This document shows, in pieces, positions 40,629 through 63,049 of a stretch of DNA of 64,000 nucleotides. The stretch lies in the NCBI RefSeq assembly GCF_002879535.1, contig NZ_PNOT02000006.1, positions 1-64,000 of the forward strand. The letters are read 5' to 3'. How positions within the stretch are numbered: position 1 is the first letter of the stretch; each line of letters opens with the position of its first letter. The notes under the pieces are model-generated. The model had not been told where the DNA came from and made no database searches. It worked only from the letters and a program-made list of their open reading frames with translations. A program made the translations under genes and the position numbers. Source of the stretch: Mesorhizobium intechi. Its GTDB lineage: Bacteria; Pseudomonadota; Alphaproteobacteria; Rhizobiales; Rhizobiaceae.

Positions 40629-41252
40629 CTAGAATTCTTCGGAATGGCCGATAGCCACGCCATACTCAGCAGCCGAATCCTGCATAGTGTGCCAAAGGCT
40701 CTCCGCGAACGTCGCAAATACCAGGACGTTGAACACCGCCTGCCCATCAGCACGATCGTTCCCGCGCCACAGCGTGACACTGGTGTGGTCCATCGACGTG
40801 GCCGCCGCAGCACCGACAGCGAAGACACCGGGATGCAGATCGATCGACGACAGTTTGGCCAACATCGTGCGCGCCTTGGCGCCGGAGACGCTGACCAGCA
40901 CCCGCGCATGCGATTGGTCGGACAGTGAAGCCGATCCGGCAAGGAGGGGAGCGAGCGCCGCCATCCCGTGCTTGTCACCCTTCGACCGGACAAGAAATTG
41001 ATCCGGTCCCGACCAGATCAGTGTGGCATCCGCGGTCTGCACCACCTTCGGCGTTTCCGGAGCAGCAACGCCGAACCGGCCCTCCGCCGCCTTGGCCATC
41101 TCCGCCGCCTTGCCGCGCCGCGCCATCACCTGGATGAGGTCGAAATTGCGAATCTCGGTCAGCGCCACGCCGGCATCGCCATGCCCACCATACCTCCCCA
41201 CCGCGAGCGCGCGGTCGAGGGGGCTGCGGACGTCCCAGGAAAACTCAGCCAC
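40629..41252 (-). CDS. mgdD: N-methylglutamate dehydrogenase subunit D (sarcosine oxidase gamma-like)
   Basis: This 207-residue protein of the SoxG family is the smallest folate-side subunit of the heterotetrameric N-methyl amino acid dehydrogenase. It is recognised by the ending pattern (VTLWRGNDRADGQAVFNVLVFATFAESLW), by size, and by position after the alpha subunit. The proposed start is GTG with GGAGG 8 bases upstream, overlapping the last 8 bases of mgdC (GTGGCTGA). An ATG five codons earlier lacks a ribosome site. The open frame running to 41552 is not coding, since it lies inside mgdC. It has no known catalytic residues of its own. Confidence 0.85.
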   Translation of the reverse strand: MAEFSWDVRSPLDRALAVGRYGGHGDAGVALTEIRNFDLIQVMARRGKAAEMAKAAEGRFGVAAPETPKVVQTADATLIWSGPDQFLVRSKGDKHGMAALAPLLAGSASLSDQSHARVLVSVSGAKARTMLAKLSSIDLHPGVFAVGAAAATSMDHTSVTLWRGNDRADGQAVFNVLVFATFAESLWHTMQDSAAEYGVAIGHSEEF

Positions 41253-44229: not shown

Positions 44230-44501
44230 GCGCCAACCTTTGCCGCGCCGGCGCCGGCAGCCGGTTCGACCGCCGCGATCTCATGCGTCAGCGTGTTGCG
44301 GGTGACCTTCAGCCACGCCCGGCAACCGCCGCCGTGGTACCAGTTCTCGCTCATCACGCCGGCGACATTGTCGCGCAGATAAACATAGTCGTGGACGGCG
44401 TCCTCACCGGCATCCGCCGTCGGTCGCACCGGCTTGGCGTCGCCAAGATAGGTGAACTCGCCAAGTTCGCGTTCGCCACAGAAGGGACAGACAATGCGCA
44501 T
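44226..44501 (-). CDS. mgdB: N-methylglutamate dehydrogenase subunit B (sarcosine oxidase delta-like)
   Basis: This 91-residue SoxD-family zinc subunit begins MRIVCPFCGERELGEF, with a CxxC pair at residues 5-8. Further zinc ligands are expected in the WYHGGGCRAWLKVTRN segment, which is typical of the family. I chose the internal Met (18 residues into the longer open frame) because it gives the normal family length. It follows mgdA by 16 bases and overlaps mgdC by 4 bases, so the subunits are probably translated together. Confidence 0.9.
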   Translation of the reverse strand: MRIVCPFCGERELGEFTYLGDAKPVRPTADAGEDAVHDYVYLRDNVAGVMSENWYHGGGCRAWLKVTRNTLTHEIAAVEPAAGAGAAKVGA

Positions 44502-44517
44502 GATTTTCCGGCCGTCC

Positions 44518-45771
44518 TCAGTGCAGGTTCGGTTGGGCGCCCTGGCCCTTTTCATCTATCATGGCGCCGGTCCGGAAGCGGTCGAGGCGGAACCGTGCAG
44601 CCTCCTCATGCGGCGTGTCGCGGGCCAGCAGATGGGCGAAGACGAAGCCTGAACCGGGCGTCGCCTTGAAGCCGCCATAGCACCAGCCGGCGTTGAGATA
44701 GAGGCCCTCCACCGGCGTCTTGTCGATGATCGGCGAGCCGTCCATCGACATGTCCATGATGCCGCCCCACTGGCGCAAAAGCCGCACGCGGCCGATCATC
44801 GGCATCAGCGCCATGCCGCCCTCGCAGACATCCTCCATAACAGGCAGGTTGCCGCGCTGGGCGTAAGAATTGTAGCCGTCAATGTCGCCGCCGAAGACAA
44901 GGCCGCCCTTGTCCGACTGGCTGACATAGAAGTGGCCGGCGCCGAAGGTCATGACATTGGGGATCAATGGCTTGATCGCCTCGGAGACGAAGGCCTGCAG
45001 CACGTGACTTTCGATCGGCAGGCGCAGGCCCGCCATATTAGCGACGCGTGACGAGGAGCCGGCGACCGCCATGCCGACCTTGCCGGCGCCGATCCTGCCG
45101 CGCGAGGTCTCGACACCGCTCACCTTGCCGTTGGCGTCCCTGACAAAGCCGGTCACCTCGCAATTCTGGATGATGTCGACGCCGAGCCCGCTCGCCGCAT
45201 GGGCATAGCCCCAGACCACGGCATCGTGCCGAGCCGTGCCGCCGCGCCGTTGCAAGAGCCCGCCTTGCACCGGAAAGCGCGCATTGTCGTAATTCAGGAA
45301 CGGCATCATCTTCTTGACGGCCGCGAGGTCGAGCAGTTCGGCATCGATGCCGTTGATGCGCATGGTGTTGCCGCGCCGAGCATAGGCGTCGCGCTGCGCG
45401 TCGGAATGGTAGAGGTTAATGACGCCGCGCTGGCTGACCATCGCATTGTAGTTGAGATCCTGCTCCATCCGCTCCCATAGCTTCATCGACAATTCGTAGA
45501 AGCCGGTATTGCCGGGCAGGCCGTAATTGGAGCGGATGATGGTGGTGTTGCGGCCGGCATTGCCGGAGCCGATCCAGCCTTTTTCCAGCACGGCGACGTT
45601 CTTGATGCCGTATTCGCTGGCGAGGAACCAGGCGGTGGCCAGGCCATGGCCACCACCGCCGATGATCACCACGTCGTAGCGATCCTTCGGCGTGGCGTCG
45701 CGCCAGGTGCGCTGCCAGTTCTTGTGGCTGGACAAGGCGGCACGGGCGAGCGAGAAGATCGAGTATTTCAT
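44518..45771 (-). CDS. mgdA: N-methylglutamate dehydrogenase subunit A (sarcosine oxidase beta-like)
   Basis: This 417-residue FAD subunit of the SoxB family oxidises the N-methyl group. The FAD motif is DVVIIGGGGHGLATAWFLASEYG near residue 33. GTARHDAVVWGYAHAASGLG near residue 180 carries the His that, in heterotetrameric sarcosine oxidase beta, binds FMN covalently (from memory). It is the first gene of mgdABCD, following gmaS by 36 bases. Substrate preference for N-methylglutamate is inferred from gmaS and mgsABC in the same row. Confidence 0.88.
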   Translation of the reverse strand: MKYSIFSLARAALSSHKNWQRTWRDATPKDRYDVVIIGGGGHGLATAWFLASEYGIKNVAVLEKGWIGSGNAGRNTTIIRSNYGLPGNTGFYELSMKLWERMEQDLNYNAMVSQRGVINLYHSDAQRDAYARRGNTMRINGIDAELLDLAAVKKMMPFLNYDNARFPVQGGLLQRRGGTARHDAVVWGYAHAASGLGVDIIQNCEVTGFVRDANGKVSGVETSRGRIGAGKVGMAVAGSSSRVANMAGLRLPIESHVLQAFVSEAIKPLIPNVMTFGAGHFYVSQSDKGGLVFGGDIDGYNSYAQRGNLPVMEDVCEGGMALMPMIGRVRLLRQWGGIMDMSMDGSPIIDKTPVEGLYLNAGWCYGGFKATPGSGFVFAHLLARDTPHEEAARFRLDRFRTGAMIDEKGQGAQPNLH

Positions 45772-45807: not shown

Positions 45808-47115
45808 TTATATGTCCAGCGTGTGGTCGCGCTCCCATTGCGTGAAGTGCGAAGCATAGGAATTCCATTCCTGGTGCTTCAGCTTTAGGTATGCCGACGA
45901 GAATTCCTCACCCAGCGCCGCCTTGAGTGATTTGTCCTTGTCGAACTCGCGCAGTGCGTCGAGCAGGTTCAGCGGAAGTTTCGGAGCGCCCTTCACCGTG
46001 TGGCCGTGCTGGTACATGTCGATGTCGTAGCGCTTGCCGGGATCGGCCTTCGAGCGGATGCCGTCGAGGCCGGCGGCAATGATCACAGCCTGCAAGAGAT
46101 AGGGGTTCGCAGCGCCGTCGGGCAGGCGCAGTTCGAAGCGGCCGGGGCCGGGCACGCGCACCATGTGGGTGCGGTTGTTGCCGGTCCAGGTCACCGTGTT
46201 CGGCGCCCAGGTCGCGCCCGAAATCGTGCGCGGAGCGTTGATGCGCTTGTAGGAATTGACCGTCGGGTTGGTGATCGCGGCAAGCGCGGAGGCATGCTTC
46301 ATGATGCCGCCGAGGAAGTTCTTGCCCTTGGCCGACAGGCCAAGCTCCATCGAATTGTCGGCGAAGACATTGGTCTTGCCCGCCTTGTCCCAAACCGAGA
46401 TGTGGGCATGGCAGCCATTGCCGGTCAGGCCCTGGAAGGGTTTTGGCATGAAGGTGGCCCGCAGGCCGTGCTTCTCGGCCACCGACTTGACCATGAACTT
46501 GAAGAAGGAGTGCTTGTCGGCGGTGGCGAGCACGTCGTCAAAGGCCCAGTTCATCTCGAACTGGCCGTTGGCGTCTTCATGATCGTTCTGGTAGGGCCCC
46601 CAGCCGAGCGCCAGCATGTGGTCGCAGATCTCGGCGATGACGTCGTATCGGCGCATCACCGCCTGCTGGTCGTAGCAAGGCTTCGAGGCCGTGTCGTATT
46701 GGTCAGAGATGACGCCGCCGTCCGGCGAGATCAGGAAGAACTCGGCCTCGACGCCGGTCTTGACATGCATGCCGTCGCTTGCGGCTTCTGCGATCAGCCG
46801 CCTCAACGTGTTGCGCGGCGTCTGGTCGACCTCCTTGTCGTCCATGATGCAGTTGGCGGCGACCCAGGCCACCTCCTTTTTCCATGGTAGCTGGATAACC
46901 GAGTCTGGATCCGGGACCGCCAGCATGTCGGGATGCGCCGGCGTCAGGTCCAGCCAGGTGGCGAATCCGGCAAAGCCGGCGCCATCCTTCTGCATGTCTG
47001 ATATCGCCTGCGCCGGCACCAGCTTGGCGCGCTGGCCACCGAACAGGTCGGTGTAGGAAATCATGAAATACTTGACGCCGTTCTTTTTGGCGAAAGCGGC
47101 GAGATCGTTCCCCAT
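45808..47115 (-). CDS. gmaS: gamma-glutamylmethylamide synthetase (glutamine synthetase family)
   Basis: This 435-residue glutamine-synthetase-fold enzyme should ligate methylamine to glutamate with ATP. The N-terminal beta-grasp part has YTDLFGGQRAKLVP. The catalytic part shows VEAEFFLIS, the ammonia/amine-site region NGCHAHISVWD, and the ATP/glutamate-binding run ending PGRFELRLPDGAANPYL. Length and N-terminus fit the GlnT/GmaS group rather than housekeeping GlnA. Its place between mgsC and mgdA reproduces the mgsABC-gmaS-mgdABCD order known from methylamine-using bacteria. True glutamine synthetase activity (GlnT) is the alternative. Confidence 0.9.
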   Translation of the reverse strand: MGNDLAAFAKKNGVKYFMISYTDLFGGQRAKLVPAQAISDMQKDGAGFAGFATWLDLTPAHPDMLAVPDPDSVIQLPWKKEVAWVAANCIMDDKEVDQTPRNTLRRLIAEAASDGMHVKTGVEAEFFLISPDGGVISDQYDTASKPCYDQQAVMRRYDVIAEICDHMLALGWGPYQNDHEDANGQFEMNWAFDDVLATADKHSFFKFMVKSVAEKHGLRATFMPKPFQGLTGNGCHAHISVWDKAGKTNVFADNSMELGLSAKGKNFLGGIMKHASALAAITNPTVNSYKRINAPRTISGATWAPNTVTWTGNNRTHMVRVPGPGRFELRLPDGAANPYLLQAVIIAAGLDGIRSKADPGKRYDIDMYQHGHTVKGAPKLPLNLLDALREFDKDKSLKAALGEEFSSAYLKLKHQEWNSYASHFTQWERDHTLDI

Positions 47116-47150: not shown

Positions 47151-48479
47151 CTAGAAGCCGTTTTTCCCCGGTATCCAGTTGGTGCCGGCGAGCGGCACGC
47201 CCGCCATGGCGGCGGCTTCGATCGTCAGGGCGACGAGATCCTCGGGTTCGAGATTGTGCAGGCTGTTCTTGCCGCAGGCGCGTGCGATCGTCTGCGCCTC
47301 GAGCGTCATCACCTTCAGATAGTTGGCCAGCCGCCGTCCAGCAGCCACGGGATCGACCCGCTTCATCAGTTCCGGGTCCTGCGTGGTGATGCCGGCAGGG
47401 TCGCGGCCTTCATGCCAGTCATCATAGGCGCCGGCCGTGGTGCCGAGCTCGTTGTACTCCGCCTCCCAGCGGGGATCGTTGTCGCCGAGCGCGACGAGCG
47501 CCGCCGTGCCGATGGAGACCGCGTCGACGCCGAGCGCCAGTGCCTTGGCGACATCGGCGCCATTGCGGATGCCGCCCGAGACGATCAACTGCACCTTGCG
47601 GTGCATGCCGAGATCCTGCAATGCCTGCACCGCCGGCCGGATACAGGCAAGCGTCGGCTGGCCGACATTCTCGATGAACACTTCCTGGGTCGCGGCCGTG
47701 CCGCCCTGCATGCCGTCGACCACCACGACATCGGCGCCGGCCTTCACCGCGAGCGCGGTGTCATAGTACGGACGCGCCCCTCCGACCTTGACGTAGATCG
47801 GCTTTTCCCAGTCGGTGATCTCGCGCAGCTCGAGGATCTTGATCTCGAGATCGTCCGGCCCGGTCCAGTCGGGATGGCGTGAGGCCGAGCGCTGGTCGAT
47901 GCCCTTGGGCAGCGTGCGCATCTCGGCGACGCGGTCGGAAATCTTCTGGCCAAGCAGCATGCCGCCGCCGCCGGGCTTGGCGCCCTGGCCAACCACGACT
48001 TCGATCGCGTCGGCGCGGCGCAGGTCGCGCGGATTCATGCCGTAGCGCGACGGCAGATACTGGTAGACCAGTTGCTTGGAATGGCCGCGCTCTTCCTCGG
48101 TCATGCCGCCGTCGCCTGTGGTGGTCGAGGTGCCCGACAGGGTCGCGCCACGGCCGAGCGCTTCCTTGGCCGGACCGGAGAGCGAACCAAAGCTCATGCC
48201 GGCAATGGTGATCGGGATCTTCAGCTCTATCGGCTTCTTGGCATGGCGCGAGCCGAGCACGACGCTGGTGTCGCAGCGCTCGCGATAGCCTTCGAGCGGA
48301 TAGCGCGAGATCGAGGCGCCGAGGAACAGCAGATCGTCGAAATGCGGCAGCTTGCGCTTGGCGCCGGCACCCCTGATGTCATAGATCCCGGTGGCCGCGG
48401 CGCGGCGGATTTCGGAAAGTGTGTAGTCGTCGAAGGTCGCGGATTTGCGCGGCGTCGTCGGCGGGTTGCGATAGGTCAT
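47151..48479 (-). CDS. mgsC: N-methylglutamate synthase subunit C (glutamate synthase FMN domain-like)
   Basis: This 442-residue protein corresponds to the FMN-binding central domain of glutamate synthase (GlxD family). KVGGARPYYDTALAVKAGADVVVVDGMQGGTAAT and LIVSGGIRNGADVAKALALGVDAVSIGTAAL form the flavin-phosphate site of the TIM barrel. It should transfer the N-methylamino group to form N-methylglutamate, together with MgsA and MgsB. It is separated by 6 bases from mgsB and by 35 from gmaS. The standalone domain, instead of a 1500-residue GltB, is the hallmark of this enzyme group. Confidence 0.92.
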   Translation of the reverse strand: MTYRNPPTTPRKSATFDDYTLSEIRRAAATGIYDIRGAGAKRKLPHFDDLLFLGASISRYPLEGYRERCDTSVVLGSRHAKKPIELKIPITIAGMSFGSLSGPAKEALGRGATLSGTSTTTGDGGMTEEERGHSKQLVYQYLPSRYGMNPRDLRRADAIEVVVGQGAKPGGGGMLLGQKISDRVAEMRTLPKGIDQRSASRHPDWTGPDDLEIKILELREITDWEKPIYVKVGGARPYYDTALAVKAGADVVVVDGMQGGTAATQEVFIENVGQPTLACIRPAVQALQDLGMHRKVQLIVSGGIRNGADVAKALALGVDAVSIGTAALVALGDNDPRWEAEYNELGTTAGAYDDWHEGRDPAGITTQDPELMKRVDPVAAGRRLANYLKVMTLEAQTIARACGKNSLHNLEPEDLVALTIEAAAMAGVPLAGTNWIPGKNGF

Positions 48480-48485: not shown

Positions 48486-49217
48486 TCAATACGCGTCGGC
48501 GTTGTCGATATTGAAATTGTAGAGGGTGCGCGCCGAGCCGTAGCGCTTGAACTCCGTTGGCTTGACGCCGGTGACGCCGGCGCGGTCGAGCAGCCCCTGA
48601 AGCAGTTGCAGATGCTCGGGCCGCATCTCCTTGGCGATGCAGTCTGCGCCGAGGCTGTCGACCTTGCCGCGCACGAACAGCCGCGCCTCGTAGATGGAAT
48701 CACCCAGCGCATCGCCGGCATCGCCCAGCACCACCAGATTGCCGGACTGCGCCATGAAGGCCGACATGTGGCCGATATTGCCGTGCACGACGATGTCGAT
48801 GCCCTTCATCGAGATGCCGCAGCGCGACGAGGCGTTGCCCTCGATGACCAGGAGGCCGCCGCGGCCGGTGGCGCCGGCATACTGGCTGGCGTCGCCTTTC
48901 ACGATGATCGAGCCCGACATCATATTCTCGCCGACGCCGGGTCCGGCCGAGCCATGCACGGTGATGGTGCTGCCGGAATTCATGCCGCCGCAATAATAGC
49001 CGACGCTGCCGCGCACATCGATGGTCACGGGCTGGTCGACGCCGACGGCGACCGAGTGGCTGCCCTTCGGGTGCAGCACTTCCCACGCCGTTTCGTTCGA
49101 GCCGGGCGTCAGATTGTGCAGCGCCTGGTTGAGTTCGCGCAGCGACGACACATCGAGATCGAAGATCCGCGAGGCGTGGTCGTGGGTCGCCGCCTTTGAA
49201 AGTTTGGTTGCCGTCAT
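48486..49217 (-). CDS. mgsB: N-methylglutamate synthase subunit B (glutamate synthase GXGXG domain-like)
   Basis: This 243-residue protein is made mostly of the right-handed beta-helix seen at the C-terminus of glutamate synthase (GlxC family). Repeating G-x-x-G-x-G turns run from about residue 60 to 190 (for example MNSGSTITVHGSAGPGVGENMM and GRGGLLVIEGNASSRCG). It is thought to be structural, bridging the amidotransferase and FMN subunits. The start ATG lies 5 bases after the mgsA stop; the open frame to 49607 runs inside mgsA and is not coding. Confidence 0.9.
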   Translation of the reverse strand: MTATKLSKAATHDHASRIFDLDVSSLRELNQALHNLTPGSNETAWEVLHPKGSHSVAVGVDQPVTIDVRGSVGYYCGGMNSGSTITVHGSAGPGVGENMMSGSIIVKGDASQYAGATGRGGLLVIEGNASSRCGISMKGIDIVVHGNIGHMSAFMAQSGNLVVLGDAGDALGDSIYEARLFVRGKVDSLGADCIAKEMRPEHLQLLQGLLDRAGVTGVKPTEFKRYGSARTLYNFNIDNADAY

Positions 49218-49222: not shown

Positions 49223-50119
49223 TCAATGCTCCCAGAAATAGACGGTTGCGGGTTCCGGTTCCCAGACCCTCGCATTGTCTATGCCGGGCAGTTTGGTCAG
49301 CGCGCGATATTCCGAGCCGAAGGCGACATACTGGTCGGTTTCGGCCATGACGGCGGGCTTGCAGGCGATCGGGTCGCGCACCACGCCAAAACCGTTCTTG
49401 GTTCCGACGACGAAGGTGAAGAAGCCGTCGAGGTCCGAGAGTGTGCCTTCCAGCGCTTCGCCGAGGTTCTTGCCATGCGCCATCTGGGACGAAAGATAGG
49501 CGGCGGCGACCTCGGTATCGTTCTCGGTTTCGAACTTCATGCCCTCGCGGATCAGCTCGCGGCGGACATTGTTGTGGTTCGACAGCGAGCCATTGTGCAC
49601 CAGGCATTGATCGGCACCGGTCGAGAAGGGATGAGCGCCCATTGTCGTCACCGCCGATTCCGTTGCCATGCGGGTGTGCCCGATGCCATGCGTGCCGGCC
49701 ATCTTGCGGACGTCGAAGCGATCGACCACCGCTTCCGGCAGGCCGACTTCCTTATAGATCTCGACGACGTCGCCGGCGCCCATGATGCGGATGTCGGGGC
49801 GAAGTGCCTGGATCGCCTCGCGCGCTTCGTCGATCTTGGCCGGCGTCGTCCGGACGACGGCGTGCGTCGACTTGACCGCAATGCTCACCGGCGCACCGAT
49901 AGCCTTGGCAAGCTCGGTATCGAGGTCGCGAAAATCGCGCGCGGGCTTCGCCGACTGGATGGTGATCTTGGCTTCGTTCCCGGAAGGCGCGCCATAGATG
50001 GCAATGCCTGCGCTGTCGGGTCCGCGATCGCTGAGCGATACCAGCATCTCCGAAAGCATCGCGCCGAGCTTCGGCTCCAGCGACTTGTCCTTTAAAAACA
50101 GTCCGACAATTCCGCACAT
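49223..50119 (-). CDS. mgsA: N-methylglutamate synthase subunit A (class II glutamine amidotransferase)
   Basis: This 298-residue class II amidotransferase (GlxB family) begins MCGIVGLF, so Cys2 is the N-terminal nucleophile after Met removal. MGAHPFSTGADQCLVHNGSLSNHNNVRREL near residue 170 is the family's substrate-binding segment. It should release methylamine from gamma-glutamylmethylamide and pass it on to MgsC. GGGAGG lies 5-6 bases before this ATG, which settles the start against a longer frame to 50179. It is the first gene of the mgs group and follows the unknown membrane module by 85 bases. Confidence 0.92.
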   Translation of the reverse strand: MCGIVGLFLKDKSLEPKLGAMLSEMLVSLSDRGPDSAGIAIYGAPSGNEAKITIQSAKPARDFRDLDTELAKAIGAPVSIAVKSTHAVVRTTPAKIDEAREAIQALRPDIRIMGAGDVVEIYKEVGLPEAVVDRFDVRKMAGTHGIGHTRMATESAVTTMGAHPFSTGADQCLVHNGSLSNHNNVRRELIREGMKFETENDTEVAAAYLSSQMAHGKNLGEALEGTLSDLDGFFTFVVGTKNGFGVVRDPIACKPAVMAETDQYVAFGSEYRALTKLPGIDNARVWEPEPATVYFWEH

Positions 50120-50204
50120 GTCAGCCTCCCGGCGTTTGCAGCTAGAAGATGATGTATCGAATGAGTCCCGCAAATTCAATCATATGAAAAAAATTTTCCT
50201 CTAG

Positions 50205-50534
50205 TTACGTATGAGGCGTACTGCCGCCATGCGAATTGTCGCCGCCCTGCGCGGCATTGTGGGCCCACCGGGCATGGCGGATACGGGCGAGCTTGTAGGC
50301 GTCCAGGATGGATAGCGCATAGATCAGGAAGCCGCCCGCGTGGCGGCCGATGAAGCTGGCGTCGGGCGGCGCGATCTTGGCGGTCACCCATGCCAGGATC
50401 ACCATGAAGAAAAGGAACTGCAGCCCGCGCACCGGCACGCCCAGAATGACATGGCCGCTCGCCGGCAGCACGATTGACGCGCCGAGGACGAGATAAGGGC
50501 TCACCGGCGCCGGGTGCGTGTTCGAGCTGGTCAT
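50205..50534 (-). CDS. small membrane protein of unknown function
   Basis: This 109-residue protein is not recognised. Two or three hydrophobic segments are visible: around 13-30 (YLVLGASIVLPASGHVIL), 37-53 (LQFLFFMVILAWVTAKI), and a weaker one around 66-80. A His/Gly-rich tail follows. It overlaps the upstream 229-residue gene by 4 bases and lies 85 bases before mgsA in the same direction. It is the last gene of a six-gene membrane module that also has an APC permease. A role in uptake or membrane association of the amine pathway is possible but not shown. Confidence 0.75.
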   Translation of the reverse strand: MTSSNTHPAPVSPYLVLGASIVLPASGHVILGVPVRGLQFLFFMVILAWVTAKIAPPDASFIGRHAGGFLIYALSILDAYKLARIRHARWAHNAAQGGDNSHGGSTPHT

Positions 50535-51220
50535 GCGGCTTGCCGTTCGCTTTGGTTGATGGCGTCGCGCAGCGCCGAGAGCGAGGTGAGCAGCCGCTCG
50601 ACCAGCGCCGGATCGATCTGTGCCTCACCGAACGCGGCCTGCCGGAAAACGCCGTAGCGCGCCCGTTCGGCTTCGGCCAGCAGCCACACGATGCGCACGC
50701 CGTTTGGCGTGATCAGCAGCTCCTTGGCGCGCCCTTCCGAAAAGGGTTGCAGATGATCGGCGATGATGCCTTGCGGGAACCGCGTGCCGCGTCGATCGGT
50801 CCGCAGCACAGCCTCGAGGGGGAATCCCGGAGCCTTCGGCAGCGTGTGCCGCAGCTGGTCGAAATTGGAGAAGGTCGTCGGCGAGCCCGGTCGCATCATC
50901 ATGTCGAAGGTCGCTGGGACGGCGACCTTTTCGGTGATCGAAACGCTGAGCCAACGCGCGGGCAGTTTTCGTGTCGCCAGCGTGTCGACGATGGTGCGCA
51001 GCTGAACGCGTTGGCCGTTCCACGACCCTTCCCAGGTGACGACACCGGCGGTGCCGTCCGAAACATCAGCGGCGTCGGCGATGACGGTGCGGATACGGCT
51101 CTCGTCGCCGGCGAGCGCCACGAGTGCCCTGGTGCGGCTGCGGCGCGCCAGCCACGCGAGGTGAAGGGCCAGAGCCAGGACAATCACCCCGGCGAGCAGT
51201 GCTGATGTCACTTCGGACAT
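50531..51220 (-). CDS. single-pass membrane protein of unknown function
   Basis: This 229-residue protein is not recognised. One N-terminal hydrophobic segment (residues 5-24, ALLAGVIVLALALHLAWLA) is followed by basic RRSRTR, so the roughly 200-residue soluble part should face the cytoplasm. That part has no motif I know; it is mixed alpha/beta with a helical end rich in Leu and Ala. It is 45 bases downstream of the APC permease gene and overlaps the next small gene by 4 bases. Conservation with the amine genes in other genomes would be the main clue. Confidence 0.75.
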   Translation of the reverse strand: MSEVTSALLAGVIVLALALHLAWLARRSRTRALVALAGDESRIRTVIADAADVSDGTAGVVTWEGSWNGQRVQLRTIVDTLATRKLPARWLSVSITEKVAVPATFDMMMRPGSPTTFSNFDQLRHTLPKAPGFPLEAVLRTDRRGTRFPQGIIADHLQPFSEGRAKELLITPNGVRIVWLLAEAERARYGVFRQAAFGEAQIDPALVERLLTSLSALRDAINQSERQAA

Positions 51221-51265
51221 TTTGTCATGTCCGGCCCGCCAAGGATCGGGGCGGGCCGTCTCCCA

Positions 51266-52663
51266 TCAATAGCCCTGCGGTTTCGGCCACGGCATGGTGA
51301 ACTGGTCGCCGCGCCGCACGAATTTGTAGCGGTAGAAATGGAACCACAGCGAGATCAGGAAATAGAAGATGGTCATCGCGATCAGCTGCGAGCCGAAACC
51401 GAGGAAGATAGCGAAGAAGGTCACCACGCACAGGCAGAACAGCACGATCGCCGGCAGCGGGTGGAACGGGTGCGTGTAGCCACGGCGGATCGTGCCGAGC
51501 GGCCACTTCTTGCGGAACATCATGATGTTGATGCTCATGAATGTGTATTGCAGCACGCCCGACAGGATCGAGAAAGTGATCGCCTGGTTGAGGTCGGCAA
51601 TGAAGGCGAAGGCAAGCGCGATCGGCAGCAGGAACAGGATCGAGCGGTAGGGCGTGCGGTATTTCGGATGCACCGCCGAGAACCAGCTCGGCAGGTAACG
51701 GTCGCGGCCGAGCGAGAACCATGCGCGCGCCGCATCGTTGATGCAGCCATTGGCGGAGGCCAGCGCCGCCAGAAGTGTCGCGATGAACAAGAGGTTTTCG
51801 AGCAGCGGGCTGCCGGTCAGCTTGCCGGCGTCCCACAGGGGATAATAGGTGATGCCGAGATATTCCCAGGGCATCAGCGAGGCGCAGACATACCAGGTCA
51901 TGGCGGCGGCAATCAAAAGCGTGATCATGCCGGCCATGGTGCCGTAGGGTAGCGAGCGGGCCGGCGAACGCACTTCCTCGGCCGCCTGCGTGGTGCCTTC
52001 GATGCCGAGATAATACCAGATGCCGAACTGGAACGCGGCAATGACGCCGATCCAGCCATAGGGCAGCGCATTGCCCGGCGTCACCAGCTCGTTGAGCTTC
52101 AGCACCGCGCCTTGCGTCCACGGGCTGACCGAGAAGAACAGGATGACGATCGAGATATAGGCAATTGCGGTGATGACGAAGTTGACGTTGAGTGTCATCA
52201 GCACGCCGCGATAGTTGAGCCAGGCCAGCACGACGATGGTGGCGGCGATGAAGGAATTGTGCGTGAGCCCTTCGACGCCGGCCTTGGCGACGATGGTGTC
52301 GCCGAGCAGGATGGCGTCCGAGACCTCCAGCATCGTGTAGGCGAAGACCAGGAACAACGCGACGTTGAAGGCCATCAGCGGCCCGACAATATGCTTGGCT
52401 TGCGCATATTGGCCGCCGGCAGCCGCCACCGTCGACGTCACTTCGGAATCGATCATGGCGACCGAGGTATAGAGCAGCCCGACGATCCAGCAGACGATCA
52501 GCGCCGCCAGCGCGCCGCCCTTGTCGGCCGAAAAATTCCAGCCGGTGAATTCACCGACCAGAACGATGCCGACGCCGAGTGCCCAGACATGGGCCGGGCC
52601 GAGCACTCGCAGCAGTGAAACCCGGTCGCCGTGAATTGCCGGTTCAAGTACGGTCGTCGTCAT
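51266..52663 (-). CDS. APC-superfamily permease in the amine locus
   Basis: This 465-residue inner-membrane permease has about 12 hydrophobic segments and the APC-type start GPAHVWALGVGIVLVGEFTGWNFSADKGG. EEVRSPARSLPYGTMAG near residue 235 is typical of the group. I chose M-T-T-T-V-L-E-P as start because GGGGAC lies 7 bases upstream and this leaves a 13-base gap after a 53-residue gene; the longer frame to 52708 would overlap that gene. Its neighbours are three tiny membrane proteins and dmm/mgs genes, so a methylamine, dimethylamine or ethanolamine-like substrate is plausible. Confidence 0.88.
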   Translation of the reverse strand: MTTTVLEPAIHGDRVSLLRVLGPAHVWALGVGIVLVGEFTGWNFSADKGGALAALIVCWIVGLLYTSVAMIDSEVTSTVAAAGGQYAQAKHIVGPLMAFNVALFLVFAYTMLEVSDAILLGDTIVAKAGVEGLTHNSFIAATIVVLAWLNYRGVLMTLNVNFVITAIAYISIVILFFSVSPWTQGAVLKLNELVTPGNALPYGWIGVIAAFQFGIWYYLGIEGTTQAAEEVRSPARSLPYGTMAGMITLLIAAAMTWYVCASLMPWEYLGITYYPLWDAGKLTGSPLLENLLFIATLLAALASANGCINDAARAWFSLGRDRYLPSWFSAVHPKYRTPYRSILFLLPIALAFAFIADLNQAITFSILSGVLQYTFMSINIMMFRKKWPLGTIRRGYTHPFHPLPAIVLFCLCVVTFFAIFLGFGSQLIAMTIFYFLISLWFHFYRYKFVRRGDQFTMPWPKPQGY

Positions 52664-52676
52664 TGTTCGTCCCCAC

Positions 52677-52838
52677 TCAAATCCGGTGTTTCTCGGAAAC
52701 GGCTTCAAGCTCGCCTTCGCGTGACGAGGTCAGAACGTCTTCGGCATAGGTCGTGTCGACCTTGAACCAGTCGTAGAGCATCCACAGCGCGAGCACGATC
52801 GAGATGCCCCAGCATGCGTAAGAGAGTGAGATCCACAT
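52677..52838 (-). CDS. 53-residue single-pass membrane protein
   Basis: This short gene encodes 53 residues starting MWISLSYACWGISIVLALWM, a Trp-rich membrane segment of about 22 residues. A charged tail follows (YDWFKVDTTYAEDV and on to the end). It lies 33 bases after the 125-residue gene and 13 bases before the permease start, with GGGACG before its ATG. Correct spacing on both sides and strict polarity (one helix, then an acidic soluble tail) support a real gene. It may be an accessory subunit of the APC permease, as small proteins are for some transporters. No known family comes to mind. Confidence 0.72.
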   Translation of the reverse strand: MWISLSYACWGISIVLALWMLYDWFKVDTTYAEDVLTSSREGELEAVSEKHRI

Positions 52839-52871
52839 GGTGCGTCCCCGATTGCTTGTCTTTCGGAACTC

Positions 52872-53249
52872 TTACTTGTCGTCGAATTTTTCGTTGATGA
52901 CGTCGCGATATTCGCGGTCGGATGCGCGGAACAGGAAGACGAAATAACCGATCAGCACCGCCGCCATGATGATCAGCGTCGGCCAGTCGATGACATAGTG
53001 GAAGCGGTTCTGGATGACGTCATGCGCCGTCTCGGGCGTGTAGCCGAGCTTCTCCCAGATGGCAGCCATGGTCGGGTTCTGCCCAAGCGCTTCCCAAGTC
53101 TTGGCATCGAGCGCGTCGATGGATTTGGCCGCTCCGGCAAGGCCGAGCTTCAGCGGCAGCCATAACGCCACGAAGATGGCGACAACCACCACGACGATAT
53201 CGAAAACCTGGCCGGCCTTGCTTTGCTCCGGCGGCGTATAGCGGGACAT
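52872..53249 (-). CDS. 125-residue membrane protein of unknown function
   Basis: This protein is not recognised. Two membrane segments are clear: residues 16-37 (FDIVVVVVAIFVALWLPLKLGL) and 91-108 (LIIMAAVLIGYFVFLFRA). A 50-residue loop between them contains ALDAKTWEALGQNPTMAAIWEKLGYTPE. The tail REYRDVINEKFDDK is strongly charged. It lies 12 bases after the 95-residue gene, in the same row. The loop between the helices could be the partner-binding part of a multi-subunit membrane complex. Confidence 0.78.
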   Translation of the reverse strand: MSRYTPPEQSKAGQVFDIVVVVVAIFVALWLPLKLGLAGAAKSIDALDAKTWEALGQNPTMAAIWEKLGYTPETAHDVIQNRFHYVIDWPTLIIMAAVLIGYFVFLFRASDREYRDVINEKFDDK

Positions 53250-53261
53250 TTCTTGTACCCC

Positions 53262-53549
53262 TCAGGACTGGCGGTTGCGGGATGCGTCGGCGTTCTTGAT
53301 ATCGAGGCCGTAGATGAAGTCCTTGTCTTCCTTGTAATGTTTGACCATCGCCAGGATCGCGGCCGTGTTGAAGATCAGCACGGCGGCGGCGGCAATCGCG
53401 ACGACGGCCTTGATGCCGCCATGCGGGATGTACGGCCATGTCATGAACAGGACGAAGAGGATCGTCGCCCACAGGCAGATGATCAGCAACGCGGATCCGC
53501 GCAAATCGGAACGGTACAGCGCCTCGATGCGCTGCTGCAGGTCTGACAT
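53262..53549 (-). CDS. 95-residue membrane protein of unknown function, first gene of the module
   Basis: This protein is not recognised. Two hydrophobic segments, residues 20-38 (ALLIICLWATILFVLFMTW) and 47-66 (AVVAIAAAAVLIFNTAAIL), are joined by a short PYIPHGG turn, so it is a helical hairpin. The tail HYKEDKDFIYGLDIKNADAS is charged. The internal Met is the start because AAGGGG lies about 8 bases upstream; the open frame begins 20 codons earlier without one. It heads the minus-strand row that runs through mgs, gmaS, mgd and tdm, divergent from dmmD. Confidence 0.76.
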   Translation of the reverse strand: MSDLQQRIEALYRSDLRGSALLIICLWATILFVLFMTWPYIPHGGIKAVVAIAAAAVLIFNTAAILAMVKHYKEDKDFIYGLDIKNADASRNRQS

Positions 53550-53834
53550 CGGTTTGTCCCCTTTTTTCGACGCCCGGCTCCGAATCCACCTTGCGTCGCC
53601 CTCTTTCAAGAGAGTGAAATTTTTTTCATAAATTCAGACCGTTTACCGCAATTGTCAAGACGAATTTACGCTGAGTTAACCGTTTGCTTGCGGCGGTCAA
53701 TTTTGCCTGACAATGAAATTATTTGCTTTCAGGGGATTGCGGGCCTCTCGCGTTTGCGGTCAATATTCGCTCCAAAGCTCCGGCCACCGCGCCAAGGAGC
53801 GGGGAACAGTGATTTTTGAACGGAGGACGAGCGG
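53550..53834. promoter_or_regulatory. divergent control region between the membrane module and dmmD
   Basis: This 285-base region has no gene and is the most AT-rich part of the locus (about 53605-53730). On the minus strand a consensus -35 TTGACA lies at 53658-53653, with a weak -10 (TGAATT) 16 bases on, about 80 bases before the first module gene. On the plus strand I could not fix a promoter. The motif pair ACCGTTTACCG and ACCGTTTGCTTG at about 53639 and 53680 may be a repeated binding site. It probably drives the long minus-strand unit and the dmm unit. Confidence 0.5.
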
Positions 53835-54968
53835 ATGACGGCATCCTGGAGATTTTCGACCCTGGCGGATCGCCATCGCGCGCTGGGTTCGAAGCTCGAA
53901 GACTGGAGCGGCATGGGCACCGCCTGGACCTACGACAAGGATGCCGACGAGGAGTACATAGCCATCCGCACCAAGGCCGGGCTGATGGACGTGTCGGGCC
54001 TGAAAAAGGTGCACATAACGGGGCCGCACGCCTCGCATCTCATCGATCTCGCTACCACCCGCGACGTGGAAAAGATCTATCCCGGCAAATCGGCCTATGC
54101 CTGCATGCTGAACGAGGCGGGAAAATTCACCGACGACTGCATCCTCTACCGCACCGGCCCGAACAGCTGGATGGTTGTGCATGGCTCGGGCACCGGCCAT
54201 GAGGAATTGCAGCGCGCCGCGATGGGCCGCGATGTCTCGCTACGCTTCGACGACAATCTGCACGATCTGTCGCTGCAGGGGCCGACCGCGGTCGACTATC
54301 TGGCCAAGCATGTGCCGGGAATTCGCGATCTCAACTATTTCCATCACATGCAGACGCAGCTCTTCGGTTTCCCGGTCATGATCTCCCGCACCGGCTACAC
54401 CGGCGAGCGCGGCTACGAGATCTTCTGCCGTGGCCAGGATGCCGGCACGATCTGGGACAGGATTCTCGACGAGGGCAAGAGCGCCGGCATCATTCCCTGC
54501 CGCTTCACCACGCTCGACATGCTGCGGGTCGAAAGCTACCTGCTGTTCTATCCCTACGACAATTCGCAAAAATATCCGTTCGAAAATGAAGGCCCCGGCG
54601 ACACGTTGTGGGAACTCGGCCTCGACTTCACCGTCAGTCCCGGCAAGACCGGCTTCCGTGGGGCCGAGGAACACTACCGGCTGAAGGGTAAGGAGCGCTT
54701 CAAGATCTACGGCGTGCTGCTCGACGGCAAGGAGCCAGCCGACGAAGGCGCGCCGGTCTATCGTGACGGCAAGAAGGTCGGCGTGGTGACCTGCGCCATG
54801 TATTCGCCGCTGGTCAAGAAATCGATGGGCATCGCCCGTCTCGACGTCGACTGCGCCGTCAAGGACACCAAGCTTGAAATCCGCAACAAGAGCGGATCGA
54901 TCAAGGCGACGGCGCAGCCATTGCCGTTTGACGATCCCAAGAAGACCAAGCGCACGGCAAAAGGTTGA
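53835..54968 (+). CDS. dmmD: GcvT-family aminomethyltransferase-like protein of dimethylamine oxidation
   Basis: This 377-residue protein has the T-protein fold of the glycine cleavage system. The folate-binding core is visible as MDVSGLKKVHITGP (near residue 50), LQGPTAVDYL, and MISRTGYTGERGYEIFC (near residue 185). It is followed by dmmA, dmmB and dmmC, so it corresponds to DmmD of dimethylamine monooxygenase loci and probably traps the methyl released as formaldehyde on tetrahydrofolate. DMSP demethylase (DmdA) and GcvT itself have the same fold, but no partner genes for those lie here. It reads away from the membrane module. Confidence 0.85.
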   Translation: MTASWRFSTLADRHRALGSKLEDWSGMGTAWTYDKDADEEYIAIRTKAGLMDVSGLKKVHITGPHASHLIDLATTRDVEKIYPGKSAYACMLNEAGKFTDDCILYRTGPNSWMVVHGSGTGHEELQRAAMGRDVSLRFDDNLHDLSLQGPTAVDYLAKHVPGIRDLNYFHHMQTQLFGFPVMISRTGYTGERGYEIFCRGQDAGTIWDRILDEGKSAGIIPCRFTTLDMLRVESYLLFYPYDNSQKYPFENEGPGDTLWELGLDFTVSPGKTGFRGAEEHYRLKGKERFKIYGVLLDGKEPADEGAPVYRDGKKVGVVTCAMYSPLVKKSMGIARLDVDCAVKDTKLEIRNKSGSIKATAQPLPFDDPKKTKRTAKG

Positions 54969-55009
54969 GGCATAATCTACAGCGAGGGGTTCGAGGCACG
55001 AAGACTTAA

Positions 55010-55606
55010 ATGGCAGCCAAAAGCATCATCAGCCGGCCGGTGTACGGAACGCTCTCTCCGCAGCCCGGCAAACACCATCTTTTCATCGCTGATGCGGAAG
55101 GTGCGCTCGCTATTTCAGACATGGCCGCACGAGCGCCGGCCGGATTTTTCGATGGCGCCGAAATAGACTTTATCCCGGGGCCGAACAACGAACACGTCGC
55201 CGCCCTCGAAGCGCTGAAGCCGGCGCGGTTTCATCTCGCGCCATCCTTTGCCAGCCTGCTGCCGAGGCTGAAGCAGACGCTGGGCAATGCCCATATGGGC
55301 CTGCGCCTCTACCTAGCCGGCACCGAAGGACTGATCGGCCAGGCCATGCAGGTGGCGCTCGAAGCCGGCATCGACCACACCTCCGTGCAGACGGAGCATC
55401 GCGGCTCGCTGGCCAGGCGCATGCAGTGCGTTCACTGCAAGGGTATCACCGAGAACGTCACGACACAGCCAGCGACCTGTTCGCATTGCGGCCTGCTGCT
55501 TCTGGTGCGCGATCACTATTCGCGGCGCCTCGCCGCTTTCCAAGGCGTCTGCATCAATGCCGAGGATCGCTCGGAGATTCCTCCAATGGAGGAGGCCTTC
55601 CCATGA
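55010..55606 (+). CDS. dmmA: dimethylamine monooxygenase subunit, DmmA-like, with zinc ribbon
   Basis: This 198-residue protein has an alpha/beta N-terminal domain. A C-terminal zinc-ribbon or rubredoxin-like knuckle carries CVHC at about 143-146 and CSHC at about 160-163 (two CxxC pairs 14 residues apart). It is the first of three tightly packed genes, overlapping dmmB by 4 bases (ATGA). In Ruegeria this set (DmmABC) converts dimethylamine to methylamine. Its exact role is not settled; electron transfer or structural metal binding is likely. The letter assignment follows the family name as I remember it. Confidence 0.8.
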   Translation: MAAKSIISRPVYGTLSPQPGKHHLFIADAEGALAISDMAARAPAGFFDGAEIDFIPGPNNEHVAALEALKPARFHLAPSFASLLPRLKQTLGNAHMGLRLYLAGTEGLIGQAMQVALEAGIDHTSVQTEHRGSLARRMQCVHCKGITENVTTQPATCSHCGLLLLVRDHYSRRLAAFQGVCINAEDRSEIPPMEEAFP

Positions 55607-56568
55607 GCACCGGCACCACAAAGCTCGATGTCGTCGTCAGTGACGTGGTTCCGGTCAACGAACTGGTCACCCGCTTCCATTTCCGCCGGCGCGATGGCGA
55701 GCTGCTGCCGACCTTTTCCGGCGGCGCCCATGTCGTCGTCGAGATGCGCGACGGCGACCGCACCCGGCTCAACCCCTATTCGCTCATGGGTTCGCCGCTC
55801 GACACGCGCGAATACACGATCTCGGTGCGCCGCGACGATGTCGGGCGTGGCGGCTCGCTGTTCATGCACCGGTCCGTCAAGCCGGGCCTGGAGATGGTGA
55901 TCAGCTATCCCGTCAACTTGTTCTCGCTCGATCTCAGGGCGAAGAAGCACTTGATGCTGGCCGGCGGCATCGGCATCACGCCCTTCATGGCGCAGACCGC
56001 GCAACTGGCGGGCGAGGACGGCAATTTCGAACTGCATTACACCTGCCGGACCGCCTCTCTGGGCACCTATGCCGACGTGCTGCGGGAGCGCTACGACAGG
56101 CGCATCAGGCTCTACCATGATGACCGCGACGAGCGCATCGATCTCGACCGATTGCTCTCGACGCAGCCGCTCGGCACGCATCTCTACGTCTGCGGTCCAG
56201 CCGGCATGATCAACTGGGTGCGCGACCGCGCGGCTGCCTTGGGCTGGCCATCGGAGGCGGTGCATTTCGAGCATTTCGCCGCACCCCAGCCCGGCCTGCC
56301 TTTCGACGTGACGCTGGCCGTCAGCGGCAAGACGATCCGCGTCGACGAACAGCAGAGCCTGCTGGAAGCCATCGAGGCGGCCGGGGTCGACCCGCCCTAT
56401 CTCTGCCGCGGCGGCGTCTGTGGCCAGTGCGAGACCAACGTCATCTCCTACGATGGCAAGTTCATCCACAACGACCACTGGCTGAGCGAGGACGACCATC
56501 GCTCCGGCTGCAAGATCATGCCGTGCGTGTCGCGCTTCGAGGGCCGTTCGCTGGTGCTGGAGCGGTAG
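55603..56568 (+). CDS. dmmB: dimethylamine monooxygenase reductase subunit (PDR/VanB type)
   Basis: This 321-residue flavin reductase should pass electrons from NAD(P)H through flavin and a plant-type 2Fe-2S cluster to the haem subunit. The flavin-binding part has NPYSLMGSPLDTREYTISVRR. The nucleotide part begins LMLAGGIGITPFMAQ. The C-terminal ferredoxin domain carries CRGGVCGQCETNV, with the fourth Cys (MPCVSRF) about 30 residues later. The start ATG overlaps the dmmA stop, with GGAGG upstream. The order flavin, NAD, then Fe-S is that of phthalate dioxygenase reductase. Confidence 0.9.
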   Translation: MSTGTTKLDVVVSDVVPVNELVTRFHFRRRDGELLPTFSGGAHVVVEMRDGDRTRLNPYSLMGSPLDTREYTISVRRDDVGRGGSLFMHRSVKPGLEMVISYPVNLFSLDLRAKKHLMLAGGIGITPFMAQTAQLAGEDGNFELHYTCRTASLGTYADVLRERYDRRIRLYHDDRDERIDLDRLLSTQPLGTHLYVCGPAGMINWVRDRAAALGWPSEAVHFEHFAAPQPGLPFDVTLAVSGKTIRVDEQQSLLEAIEAAGVDPPYLCRGGVCGQCETNVISYDGKFIHNDHWLSEDDHRSGCKIMPCVSRFEGRSLVLER

Positions 56569-56577
56569 GAGGAAATC

Positions 56578-57618
56578 ATGGGCATCACCTTTCGCAAGGA
56601 AACCTTCCGCGACGATTTCACCTTCAGGAACAGCCCGGAGCACATCAGGCGGTTCCCGTTTCCGTTCCACGAAGACGCCTACATGTATGCGGTCAACATC
56701 GAGCCGCATGTCGTCGGGCCTAAGGGCAGCGTGCTGGAGAACCTGATCGACGTCGACGAGCACTATATCGCCGAGATGCAGGACCGCGCTTTGGTGCTGG
56801 CCGAGGACCCCCTGCGCTGCCAGTCGCTGCCGCATATGACGCTGGCCGGCTGGGATCTGCTCGAACTGCTGATGGAACAGCAGGCGCTGGGTTATCCCGA
56901 GCATTTCACGCTGACGCGGGACGGCGACCGCTGGCGCTGGATCAACCGGCCGCTCGGCATCGACGACACCTTCACGTTCGGTGACACCTCGACGCTGCCT
57001 TACGGTCCGATGGAATACATCACCCGCCAGAGCCAGGGGGATTTCTGCATCCTCGACCAGCGCGACGGCAATTTGTGGATGGATGCCGGCATGGTCACCA
57101 CCCAGGCCGACTGGTCGCTCGATTTCGACATCGGCATGAATTTTTTCGAGTGGCACGCGCCGGTGCCGCTGGCGCATGAGAAGGGCATTTTCACGCGGGC
57201 GCTGAAGTTCCTCACCAACATCCAGCAGGGCAAGCCGGCGCGGCGCCTCAACTGGACGATGACCATCAATCCGCGCCTCGATACCAGCCCGGAAAATTAC
57301 CACAAATGGGGTCCGGACCGGACGACGGTGACGCCTCAGAATGTCGGCGACAAGGTGCATCTGCGCGTCGAGTTGCAAAGCTTCTGGCGGTTGCCGCGCT
57401 CCAACGGCATCGTCTTCCCGATCCGCTGCTATCTGATCAAGATGGACGAGTTGGTGACGCAGCCGAAATGGGCGCGACGCCTGCACCGCGTCATCCGCGA
57501 CCTGCCGGAGGAACTCGCTACCTATAAGGGACTCACGCGCTATCGGCCGACGCTGGTCGAATGGCTGTCGAAGCTGGATGACGGCAGTCCGACCAGTTCG
57601 GGTTTTGGGCCTGATTAA
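56578..57618 (+). CDS. dmmC: dimethylamine monooxygenase haem subunit (DUF3445, haem-dependent oxidative N-demethylase)
   Basis: This 346-residue protein of the DUF3445 family, whose founding member is a PAS-like haem N-demethylase, should carry out oxidative removal of one methyl group from dimethylamine. MGITFRKETFRDDFTFRNSPEHIRRFPFPFHED at the start, the TLTRDGDRWRWINRPLGIDDTFTFGD segment, and the R-x-P/W-rich C-terminal half fit the family. It is 9 bases after dmmB. The 3' end overlaps the convergent XRE gene by 4 bases. Direct recognition is from family memory; the operon context is strong support. Confidence 0.88.
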   Translation: MGITFRKETFRDDFTFRNSPEHIRRFPFPFHEDAYMYAVNIEPHVVGPKGSVLENLIDVDEHYIAEMQDRALVLAEDPLRCQSLPHMTLAGWDLLELLMEQQALGYPEHFTLTRDGDRWRWINRPLGIDDTFTFGDTSTLPYGPMEYITRQSQGDFCILDQRDGNLWMDAGMVTTQADWSLDFDIGMNFFEWHAPVPLAHEKGIFTRALKFLTNIQQGKPARRLNWTMTINPRLDTSPENYHKWGPDRTTVTPQNVGDKVHLRVELQSFWRLPRSNGIVFPIRCYLIKMDELVTQPKWARRLHRVIRDLPEELATYKGLTRYRPTLVEWLSKLDDGSPTSSGFGPD

Positions 57619-58328
57619 CCCGCGCTGTTTTGCGGATAGCAGATAATCGACAAATAGCGCATCGGTAGTTTCGTCAGTTGCTCCGGTCCGTGCGGCGCGT
57701 CGGCGTCGAAGAACAGGCTGTCGCCGGGCTTCATCGGGTAGAGGTTGCTGCCGTGCCGGTAAACGACTTCGCCCTCGAGCATGTAGAGGAACTCCATGCC
57801 CTCGTGCTGGAAAGTCGGGAACACGTCCGAATCCTCGGTCAGCGTGATCAGGTAGGGTTCGACGACGACACCGCTGGTGTTCGACCCGATATGGCCGAGC
57901 AAATTGTACTGGTGGCCGGCGCGCGTGCCGCGGCGCTCGACATCCAGCCCTTCGCCGGCCTTGACGAACACGGCACTACGCTCCTCCTCAAAGCGGCGGA
58001 AGAAGGCGGTGACGGGAACGCCGAGCGCCCGCGACAGCGCCTGCAGCGTGGTCAGCGACGGCGAGGTGATGCCGTTCTCGATCTTGGACAGCATGCCCAG
58101 CGAAATGTCGGTGGCGACGGCCAGATCGGCCACGGTGATGCCGAGCTTCTTGCGGAACGCCCGCACTTCGCGGCCGATCGCCACCTCCAGCACCTTCTCG
58201 CGTGTGTCGCGGATGGCGTGCGGATTCTGCGTCAGCGGTGCGCGGATGGTCTTGCCGTCCGCCGAGACCTTTGGCTGGGGCTTCGGCTTGCCGCCGGCAA
58301 GCCCGGCCTTGGAACTGTCTTTCGCCAT
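57615..58328 (-). CDS. XRE-family regulator with C-terminal cupin domain
   Basis: This 237-residue regulator has a lambda-repressor-like helix-turn-helix in residues about 57-110 (FRKKLGITVADLAVATDISLGMLSKIENGITSPSLTTLQALSRALG). A C-terminal cupin sensor domain follows (EGMEFLYMLEGEVVYRHGSNLYPMKPGDSLFFDADAPHG near residue 185). It is divergent from tmm and convergent to dmmC, so it is placed to control both trimethylamine and dimethylamine oxidation. Two matching palindromic sites lie in the gap to tmm, one next to its own start (autoregulation). The ligand is probably a pathway intermediate. Confidence 0.92.
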   Translation of the reverse strand: MAKDSSKAGLAGGKPKPQPKVSADGKTIRAPLTQNPHAIRDTREKVLEVAIGREVRAFRKKLGITVADLAVATDISLGMLSKIENGITSPSLTTLQALSRALGVPVTAFFRRFEEERSAVFVKAGEGLDVERRGTRAGHQYNLLGHIGSNTSGVVVEPYLITLTEDSDVFPTFQHEGMEFLYMLEGEVVYRHGSNLYPMKPGDSLFFDADAPHGPEQLTKLPMRYLSIICYPQNSAG

Positions 58329-58549: not shown

Positions 58550-58590
58550 TTTGTTTCGCTGGGGAAATCAAAAATGAGGAGGCCCTGGAA

Positions 58591-63018: not shown

Positions 63019-63049
63019 CCAATCGTCCTTCTGGAACATCAAGGCTTGA

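Follow-up and report, generated by a model that had tools for sequence, protein, structure and literature searches.

A conserved six-gene membrane module encoding an APC permease is a candidate methylamine uptake system

We analyzed a 64,000-nucleotide stretch of Mesorhizobium intechi DNA (contig NZ_PNOT02000006.1, positions 1 to 64,000; referred to as the window) and, within it, a module of six genes, P1 to P6, encoding an APC-superfamily permease (P4) and five further membrane proteins (P1, P2, P3, P5, and P6). Aerobic methylamine degradation is well characterized at the level of its enzymes, and carrier-type methylamine uptake was described physiologically long ago. In the open-licence literature that we searched, we found no description of the module, and the excerpts available name no gene for methylamine entry in bacteria that use the N-methylglutamate (NMG) pathway. 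We find that the six genes form one conserved unit in which P4 and its partners co-occur obligately, that the unit is associated with GmaS and Mgs proteins, that a palindrome is common to the promoters of P1 and mgsA, and that P5 has a predicted fold like those of TtfA and CCDC47. We consider it probable, at about 0.58, that the module is a methylamine uptake system working as a complex.

The module is conserved as a unit. All six genes are present in 77 of 79 related loci of our genome collection (the other two, L054 and L079, reach a contig end after P4), in all eight plasmid loci fetched, and in 57 of 60 regions of a further set. This set draws on 57 of the order's 60 carrier genomes (all but G000, G055, and G123) together with G008, G312, and a second stretch of G424; its exceptions are two contig ends (L127 and L132) and L134, which surrounds an additional, divergent P2 of G424. 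Gene order is identical in all complete loci except L146, which has two P4 copies in a row, and is kept in records labelled Alphaproteobacteria, Betaproteobacteria (Paraburkholderia), and Gammaproteobacteria. Median dN/dS values between the window and 10 related loci are 0.14, 0.08, 0.15, 0.04, 0.23, and 0.22 for P1 to P6, compared with 0.06 for gmaS. Because dN/dS is low and gene order is kept across three proteobacterial classes, we reject a chance run of open reading frames (ORFs). A mobile or viral cassette was also set aside; when viral contigs were scanned with the P4 alignment, no relative was found.

P4 is found where its partners are found. A P2 profile matches 60 of 397 genomes of the order, and a P4 profile (E up to 1e-60) matches 59, the same set less G400, in which the module runs into a contig end; none of the other 337 genomes has a P4 match. 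Among 72,556 plasmid records, P1 occurs in 22 and P4, counted from 60% identity upward, also in 22, and the accessions are identical. P4 is thus always accompanied by its partners in the genomes sampled, apart from the divergent second set of G424.

Several loci depart from the standard arrangement. In L146 (G506), tandem P4 genes occupy positions 10354 to 13181 of one module whose other five genes are single copy. In L179 (G727), which was counted as complete, P4, P5, and P6 are broken up between reading frames, as would result from decay or misassembly. The second, divergent copy in G424 (L194, 3382 to 5185 and 15908 to 16333) has P1 together with P4 (694 bits) and, about 11 kb downstream, P2, but no P3, P5, or P6 was found in it. 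On pSymB of Sinorhizobium meliloti Ak57 (L084, 10294 to 12265), P3 runs in frame into P4 without a stop codon and P2 likewise lacks its stop; both stops are present in three other Sinorhizobium plasmids, so that this is either a real fusion or a sequence error.

P4 belongs to the APC superfamily, exceeding the gathering score across the transporter core with both PF00324 (108 bits, cutoff 24.6, residues 32 to 429) and PF13520 (95.7 bits, cutoff 27, residues 30 to 437). Its nearest NCBIfam family is the ethanolamine permease Eat (TIGR00908), at 168.9 bits under a cutoff of 381.75; since the score misses the cutoff by more than half, we rejected P4 as a plain Eat protein. The window's own genome holds one strong P4 match. 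P4 proteins from the 22 module-bearing plasmids are 66 to 68% identical to the query, while the other 65 plasmid matches fall below 60%, with at most 30% among the 38 matches listed. This identity gap and the co-occurrence of P4 with its partners place P4, by its sequence, in a discrete APC subfamily that is nearest to Eat and tied to the small proteins.

P4 was also compared with known transporters. P4 and Eat proteins have segments in common in transmembrane helices TM1 (GE[YF]xGW) and TM6 (IW[YF][YF]L-x-IEG). The Eat genes fetched adjoin eutC or an amine oxidase gene and had no module-type partners in the few stretches available, with flanks of only 200 bases. The trimethylamine N-oxide permease TmoP, an APC-type permease of methylated-amine loci that was considered along with the TmoXWV transporter, lies near the module in 13 loci and is a separate protein. 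P4 was rejected as TmoP because NF053774 is not among the 16 NCBIfam families it matched at E up to 1, whereas a TmoP from L163 reaches 874 bits when searched against that library. Amt/Mep ammonium/methylammonium channels move methylammonium, but differ in fold and family from the module proteins, none of which matched an ammonium transporter domain (Amt/Mep/Rh) in Pfam at E up to 1. Remote sequence relatives of P4 in the PDB include heteromeric amino acid transporters (SLC7 with the SLC3 heavy chain), which likewise pair an APC-fold light chain with an obligate membrane partner; they have one glycoprotein partner, however, whereas the module has five small ones with unrelated predicted features. 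P5 is the only large partner, and no glucosidase-like heavy-chain domain is among the Foldseek and VIA-align matches listed for it.

Carriers of the module are strongly enriched in genes of the NMG pathway. With presence of MgsC defined by a best match at E up to 1e-170 (a cutoff that we set), MgsC is encoded by 57 of 60 carriers and by 69 of 337 non-carriers of the order (Fisher 1e-29; the genomes are not independent). Seven module-free genomes with intermediate MgsC-like matches (E 1e-113 to 1e-150) were scored as negative; as positives they would bring the latter count to 76 of 337. Collapsed by genus, the counts are 14 of 14 carrier genera and 46 of 127 others (2.4e-6). GmaS is present in 59 of the 60 carriers and DmmB in 44. 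The initial annotation, made from the sequence alone, had allowed that its proposal would fail if the small proteins lacked conserved homologues or if the module occurred mainly away from amine genes; the conserved unit and the MgsC and GmaS counts show otherwise. In 32 of the 57 MgsC-positive carriers, no more than 25 kb separates the module from mgsC, where about 1% would be expected for a random place in a 4.5-Mb genome; such proximity is seen in 12 of 14 genera. In the two carriers met outside the order, mgsC shares the contig of the module, at distances of about 3 and 12 kb. One of the three MgsC-negative carriers, G400, ends its contig just where mgs follows in its two congeners, and the other two, G664 and G736, encode GmaS above the curated cutoff.

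The association extends to plasmids. On paAMD1 of Aminobacter niigataensis MD1, the module lies about 12 to 25 kb from the NMG genes, and the module, serine-cycle genes, and NMG genes fall within about 33 kb. According to excerpts of a study of this plasmid (PMC9699525), most genes of its methylamine cluster, which may or may not include those of the module, are upregulated on dimethylamine or metformin as compared with sucrose. The abstract of another study (PMC5023235) reports amino acid permeases induced on methylamine; they do not appear in the printed table, so they could not be tied to P4.

Promoter elements also connect the module to mgs genes. The exact 12-mer TGAAAAAAATTT occurs only twice in the window, at 53617 to 53628 (minus strand) upstream of P1 and at 50185 to 50196 (plus strand) upstream of mgsA, and was chosen after being seen at both promoters. 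It recurs in 71 of 79 related loci and lies just upstream of P1 in those at standard coordinates. A degenerate palindrome, TTKCCTnnnAGGMAA, sought with one mismatch allowed within 250 bases upstream, precedes P1 in 20 of 59 loci and module-near mgsA in 8 of 24. Because the palindrome was derived from the regions preceding P1 and later relaxed, the counts for P1 and linked mgsA are not independent tests. The mgsA genes distant from the module do provide an independent test, and here the palindrome is present in 7 of 20 regions (0.23 expected, at 0.012 per region; binomial 2e-9, not corrected for relatedness); these regions come from 18 genomes and the seven matches from five genera. In G472, G648, G602, and G666, the palindrome stands at both promoters although these are separated by more than 1 Mb or belong to different contigs. 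No match was found upstream of gmaS (0/28), mgsC (0/25), or P5 (0/57), and one was found upstream of dmmD (1/10). A strict palindrome with two mismatches precedes P1 in 20 of 65 loci, mgsA in 7 of 30, and dmmD in 2 of 13; in a separate count, with up to two mismatches, it precedes P1 in 24 of 72 loci. The window's own copy is poor (position 53703, three mismatches). Of the 60 regions fetched, 24 have an XRE/cupin gene, a candidate regulator, close to the module.

Of the five partner proteins, P5 yielded the most informative structural model. It has one membrane segment by hydropathy, and its AlphaFold2 model (mean pLDDT 89.5) predicts a long N-terminal helix that includes this segment, followed by an alpha/beta domain and a C-terminal helix. 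Mycobacterial TtfA (PDB 6t84) was its sole PDB match below 0.001 in Foldseek (E 4e-4) and aligned in VIA-align with a Z score of 11.2 over 153 residues (root mean square deviation, 3.5). Three CCDC47 chains followed with Z scores of 11.0, 9.6, and 9.3, and the next match, in fifth place, had a Z score of 6.5. Chain 4 of 9i78 was recognized as CCDC47 since its aligned residues 76 to 371 agree with CCDC47 76 to 370 in the excerpts of PMC12572126; the other two chains were assigned from entry title and length. The soluble domain of P5 is therefore predicted to fold like TtfA and CCDC47 over most of its length, although a sequence profile of P5 matched no PDB sequence at E up to 1 and no Pfam family.

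Both structural relatives come from systems unlike the module in important respects. The partner of TtfA, MmpL3, is an RND-type lipid transporter, whereas P4 is an APC permease, and no sequence similarity between P5 and TtfA was found. CCDC47 is eukaryotic and ribosome bound, whereas P5 is bacterial, and no sequence similarity between the two was found. TtfA is in a complex with MmpL3 and is needed for its function, according to excerpts of PMC6593404; CCDC47 is part of an intramembrane chaperone (PAT) in those of PMC12572126, and the excerpts of PMC9630114 describe prokaryotes as lacking PAT components. Because TtfA and CCDC47 both serve polytopic membrane proteins, P5 would fit a helper of P4. 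P6, a small membrane protein encoded next to P5, might be a counterpart of Asterix, the partner of CCDC47 in the PAT chaperone. The fold that P5 is predicted to have in common with TtfA and CCDC47 does not prove a common function.

The remaining partners are small proteins with conserved features. By hydropathy, P1 has two predicted membrane segments, and it ends in a conserved tail (HYxEDKxFIYGLDI) at its C terminus; P2 has two segments flanking a conserved loop of about 50 residues, P3 has one segment and a conserved tail (SSREGExEA), and P6 has at least one segment. None of P1, P2, P3, P5, and P6 scores above a curated cutoff in Pfam or NCBIfam. This upholds the initial annotation, which had counted five unknown proteins with membrane segments: P4 alone exceeds a family cutoff, and hydropathy gives a segment in all five. 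The structure prediction for P2 was poor (pLDDT 62), and the model was not used. P2 has sub-threshold Pfam matches only, among them one to FixQ (14.7 bits versus 29), and was rejected as a FixQ-like cytochrome oxidase part.

From these results, we propose how the module may work. The six proteins would form one complex with methylamine as its substrate and an inward direction of transport. P4, as the transporting subunit, would be an Eat-like APC-fold permease, presumably ion coupled, that binds methylammonium and carries it in; its Eat-like TM1 and TM6 segments, which contain conserved acidic residues, fit a small cationic amine. P1, P2, P3, P5, and P6 would be obligate accessory proteins that assemble, stabilize, or gate P4. 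Among them, P5 would be a membrane-anchored, TtfA/CCDC47-like protein that docks on P4 or helps its assembly, and the four small membrane proteins may be stabilizing, docking, or regulatory subunits. Inside the cell, GmaS would turn methylamine into gamma-glutamylmethylamide, which would feed the NMG pathway. We favor methylamine over dimethylamine as the substrate because DmmB is found in only 44 of the 60 carriers. In a more demanding version, which we regard as doubtful, the APC permease would work only when all six proteins form a complex. This complex would be both a heteromeric secondary amine transporter and a client-dedicated prokaryotic counterpart of PAT, and it would supply the NMG pathway with methylamine. 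P5 would then be the complex's own CCDC47/TtfA-like membrane chaperone, P6 might be its partner in the way that Asterix is the partner of CCDC47, and P1, P2, and P3 would be mini-subunits.

Several observations weigh against methylamine uptake as the role of the module. The pathway does not need it: MgsC is present in 69 of the 337 module-free genomes, so other routes of entry must exist. Among the 57 MgsC-positive carriers, 25 have the module and mgsC on separate contigs or over 25 kb apart, and five of eight plasmid loci have no NMG gene within 10 kb, one of which, paAMD1, was resolved as described above. G664 and G736 encode MgsC-like paralogues only and no proper MgsC; both are among the carriers of seven loci of genus g264 in which a homospermidine synthase gene lies just downstream of the module. 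In 39 of 59 loci, P1 is not preceded by the palindrome, whose strict form also occurs upstream of gmaS (1/33) and mgdA (1/13). In the co-occurrence counts, phylogeny was handled by genus collapse only.

The association with pathway genes leaves room for other readings. The same kind of complex might take up another small amine, such as ethanolamine, dimethylamine, putrescine, or a related polyamine. P4's nearest named family is the ethanolamine permease, EutB matches occur at about 2.4 kb from P4 in G461 (L138; residues 173 to 430 of the profile only) and at about 10 kb in G553 (contig C1), and the g264 loci with homospermidine synthase include both carriers that have MgsC-like paralogues but no proper MgsC. 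Nonetheless, we think this rather unlikely: P4 stays under the Eat cutoff by more than half, EutB is found in only 25 of 54 carriers searched (of 60 known) and was not found in the window's genome, DmmB is less constant than GmaS (44/60 versus 59/60), and homospermidine synthase was seen next to the module in one genus only. Genomic association would look the same if the module exported methylamine, ammonium, gamma-glutamylmethylamide, or another pathway product as an overflow valve that avoids toxicity, and APC proteins include exchangers such as AdiC, a remote relative of P4. P4's nearest sequence relatives are annotated as uptake permeases, however, and export appears unlikely.

Five accessory proteins far exceed the needs of an APC permease, and in 10 loci, from several families, the module has a response-regulator-type gene nearby. 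Both would suit a sensing complex (transceptor) in which P4 senses external methylamine, the small proteins relay the signal, and transport is secondary. Signaling domains were not found in P1 to P3, P5, or P6 in Pfam and NCBIfam, and the regulators vary between lineages, which makes this role improbable. The initial annotation had offered two functions, amine uptake with small accessory subunits or a membrane scaffold for oxidation of dimethylamine or methylamine. The uptake half gains from the conservation of all six proteins, the MgsC and GmaS counts, and a palindrome that the P1 and mgsA promoters can have in common even when unlinked. A scaffold would suit the position of the module between dmm and mgs clusters, seen in the window and in most Mesorhizobium loci fetched, but it found no specific support: dmm genes do not always accompany the module (16 of the 60 carriers lack DmmB), mgsC is distant or on another contig in 25 of 57, no redox or cofactor domain was found in P1 to P6 in Pfam and NCBIfam, and P4 is a full permease family protein. 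We consider a scaffold very improbable.

Table 1 lists the module and its surroundings. The genes, gaps, and overlap given by the initial annotation agree to the base with the ORF coordinates, the intergenic gaps from P1 to P5 being 12, 33, 13, and 45 bases and the P5/P6 overlap 4 bases. Profiles of the flanks likewise place the module, as had been proposed, between dmmD (from 53835, divergent) and mgsA (from 50119), co-directional with mgs-gmaS-mgd. The sarcosine oxidase-type genes were called mgd (N-methylglutamate dehydrogenase) by context.

TABLE 1 Features of the module and adjoining genes in the window
Feature	Coordinates	Strand	Description	Basis
P1	53262..53549	-	95 aa	ORF; alignment (n = 14)
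P2	52872..53249	-	125 aa	ORF; alignment (n = 13)
P3	52677..52838	-	53 aa	ORF; alignment (n = 13)
P4	51266..52663	-	465 aa; APC-superfamily permease; presumed transport subunit	PF00324, PF13520
P5	50531..51220	-	229 aa; presumed accessory or assembly factor	AlphaFold2, Foldseek, VIA-align, alignments
P6	50205..50534	-	109 aa; small membrane protein	ORF; alignment (n = 14)
Intergenic promoter region P1/dmmD	53550..53834	.	Contains exact TGAAAAAAATTT	
Intergenic region P6/mgsA	50120..50204	.	Contains the other exact TGAAAAAAATTT	
mgsA-like gene	49223..50119	-	Glutamine amidotransferase; first gene of flanking mgsABC-gmaS cluster	Profiles
mgsB-like gene	48486..49184	-	GXGXG-domain protein	Profiles
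mgsC-like gene	47151..48479	-	Glutamate synthase-domain protein	Profiles
gmaS	45808..47115	-		TIGR03105, 674 bits (cutoff 470)
Sarcosine oxidase-type subunits	41245..45771	-	mgdA-like, 44518-45771; large subunit, 41245-44229	
dmmD, dmmA, dmmC, dmmB	53835..57618	+	Dimethylamine monooxygenase cluster; divergent from module	Profiles
XRE/cupin regulator	57615..58328	-	Candidate regulator for the locus	PF01381, PF07883

Beyond the regulator, the window encodes a flavin-containing monooxygenase-like protein (58378 to 59949, plus strand), possibly a trimethylamine monooxygenase by context, and an ABC transporter with a glycine betaine-type substrate-binding domain (59969 to 63769, minus strand), possibly the trimethylamine N-oxide transporter of the locus. 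Other loci have neighbors of their own. In the g264 loci (L137, L147, L158, L165, L169, L172, and L180), the homospermidine synthase gene that follows the module, identified by a PDB match for L172, is followed by a gene for an ABC-type substrate-binding protein. The response-regulator-type genes near the module are in L082, L088, L127, L128, L133, L138, L141, L143, L155, and L159; the member tested matches two-component regulators, and a neighbor tested in L155 is a hybrid sensor kinase gene.

The APC permease type itself is known; what is new here is an APC permease with five obligate, undescribed partners. The module is a compact candidate for methylamine entry, present in 14 of the 60 sampled MgsC-bearing genera of the order, about a quarter, and also in methylotrophy regions on plasmids. 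If our reading is true, its design would be unusual: a secondary transporter would depend on five obligate accessory proteins, one of which would have the fold of both a transporter accessory protein and a eukaryotic membrane-protein chaperone.

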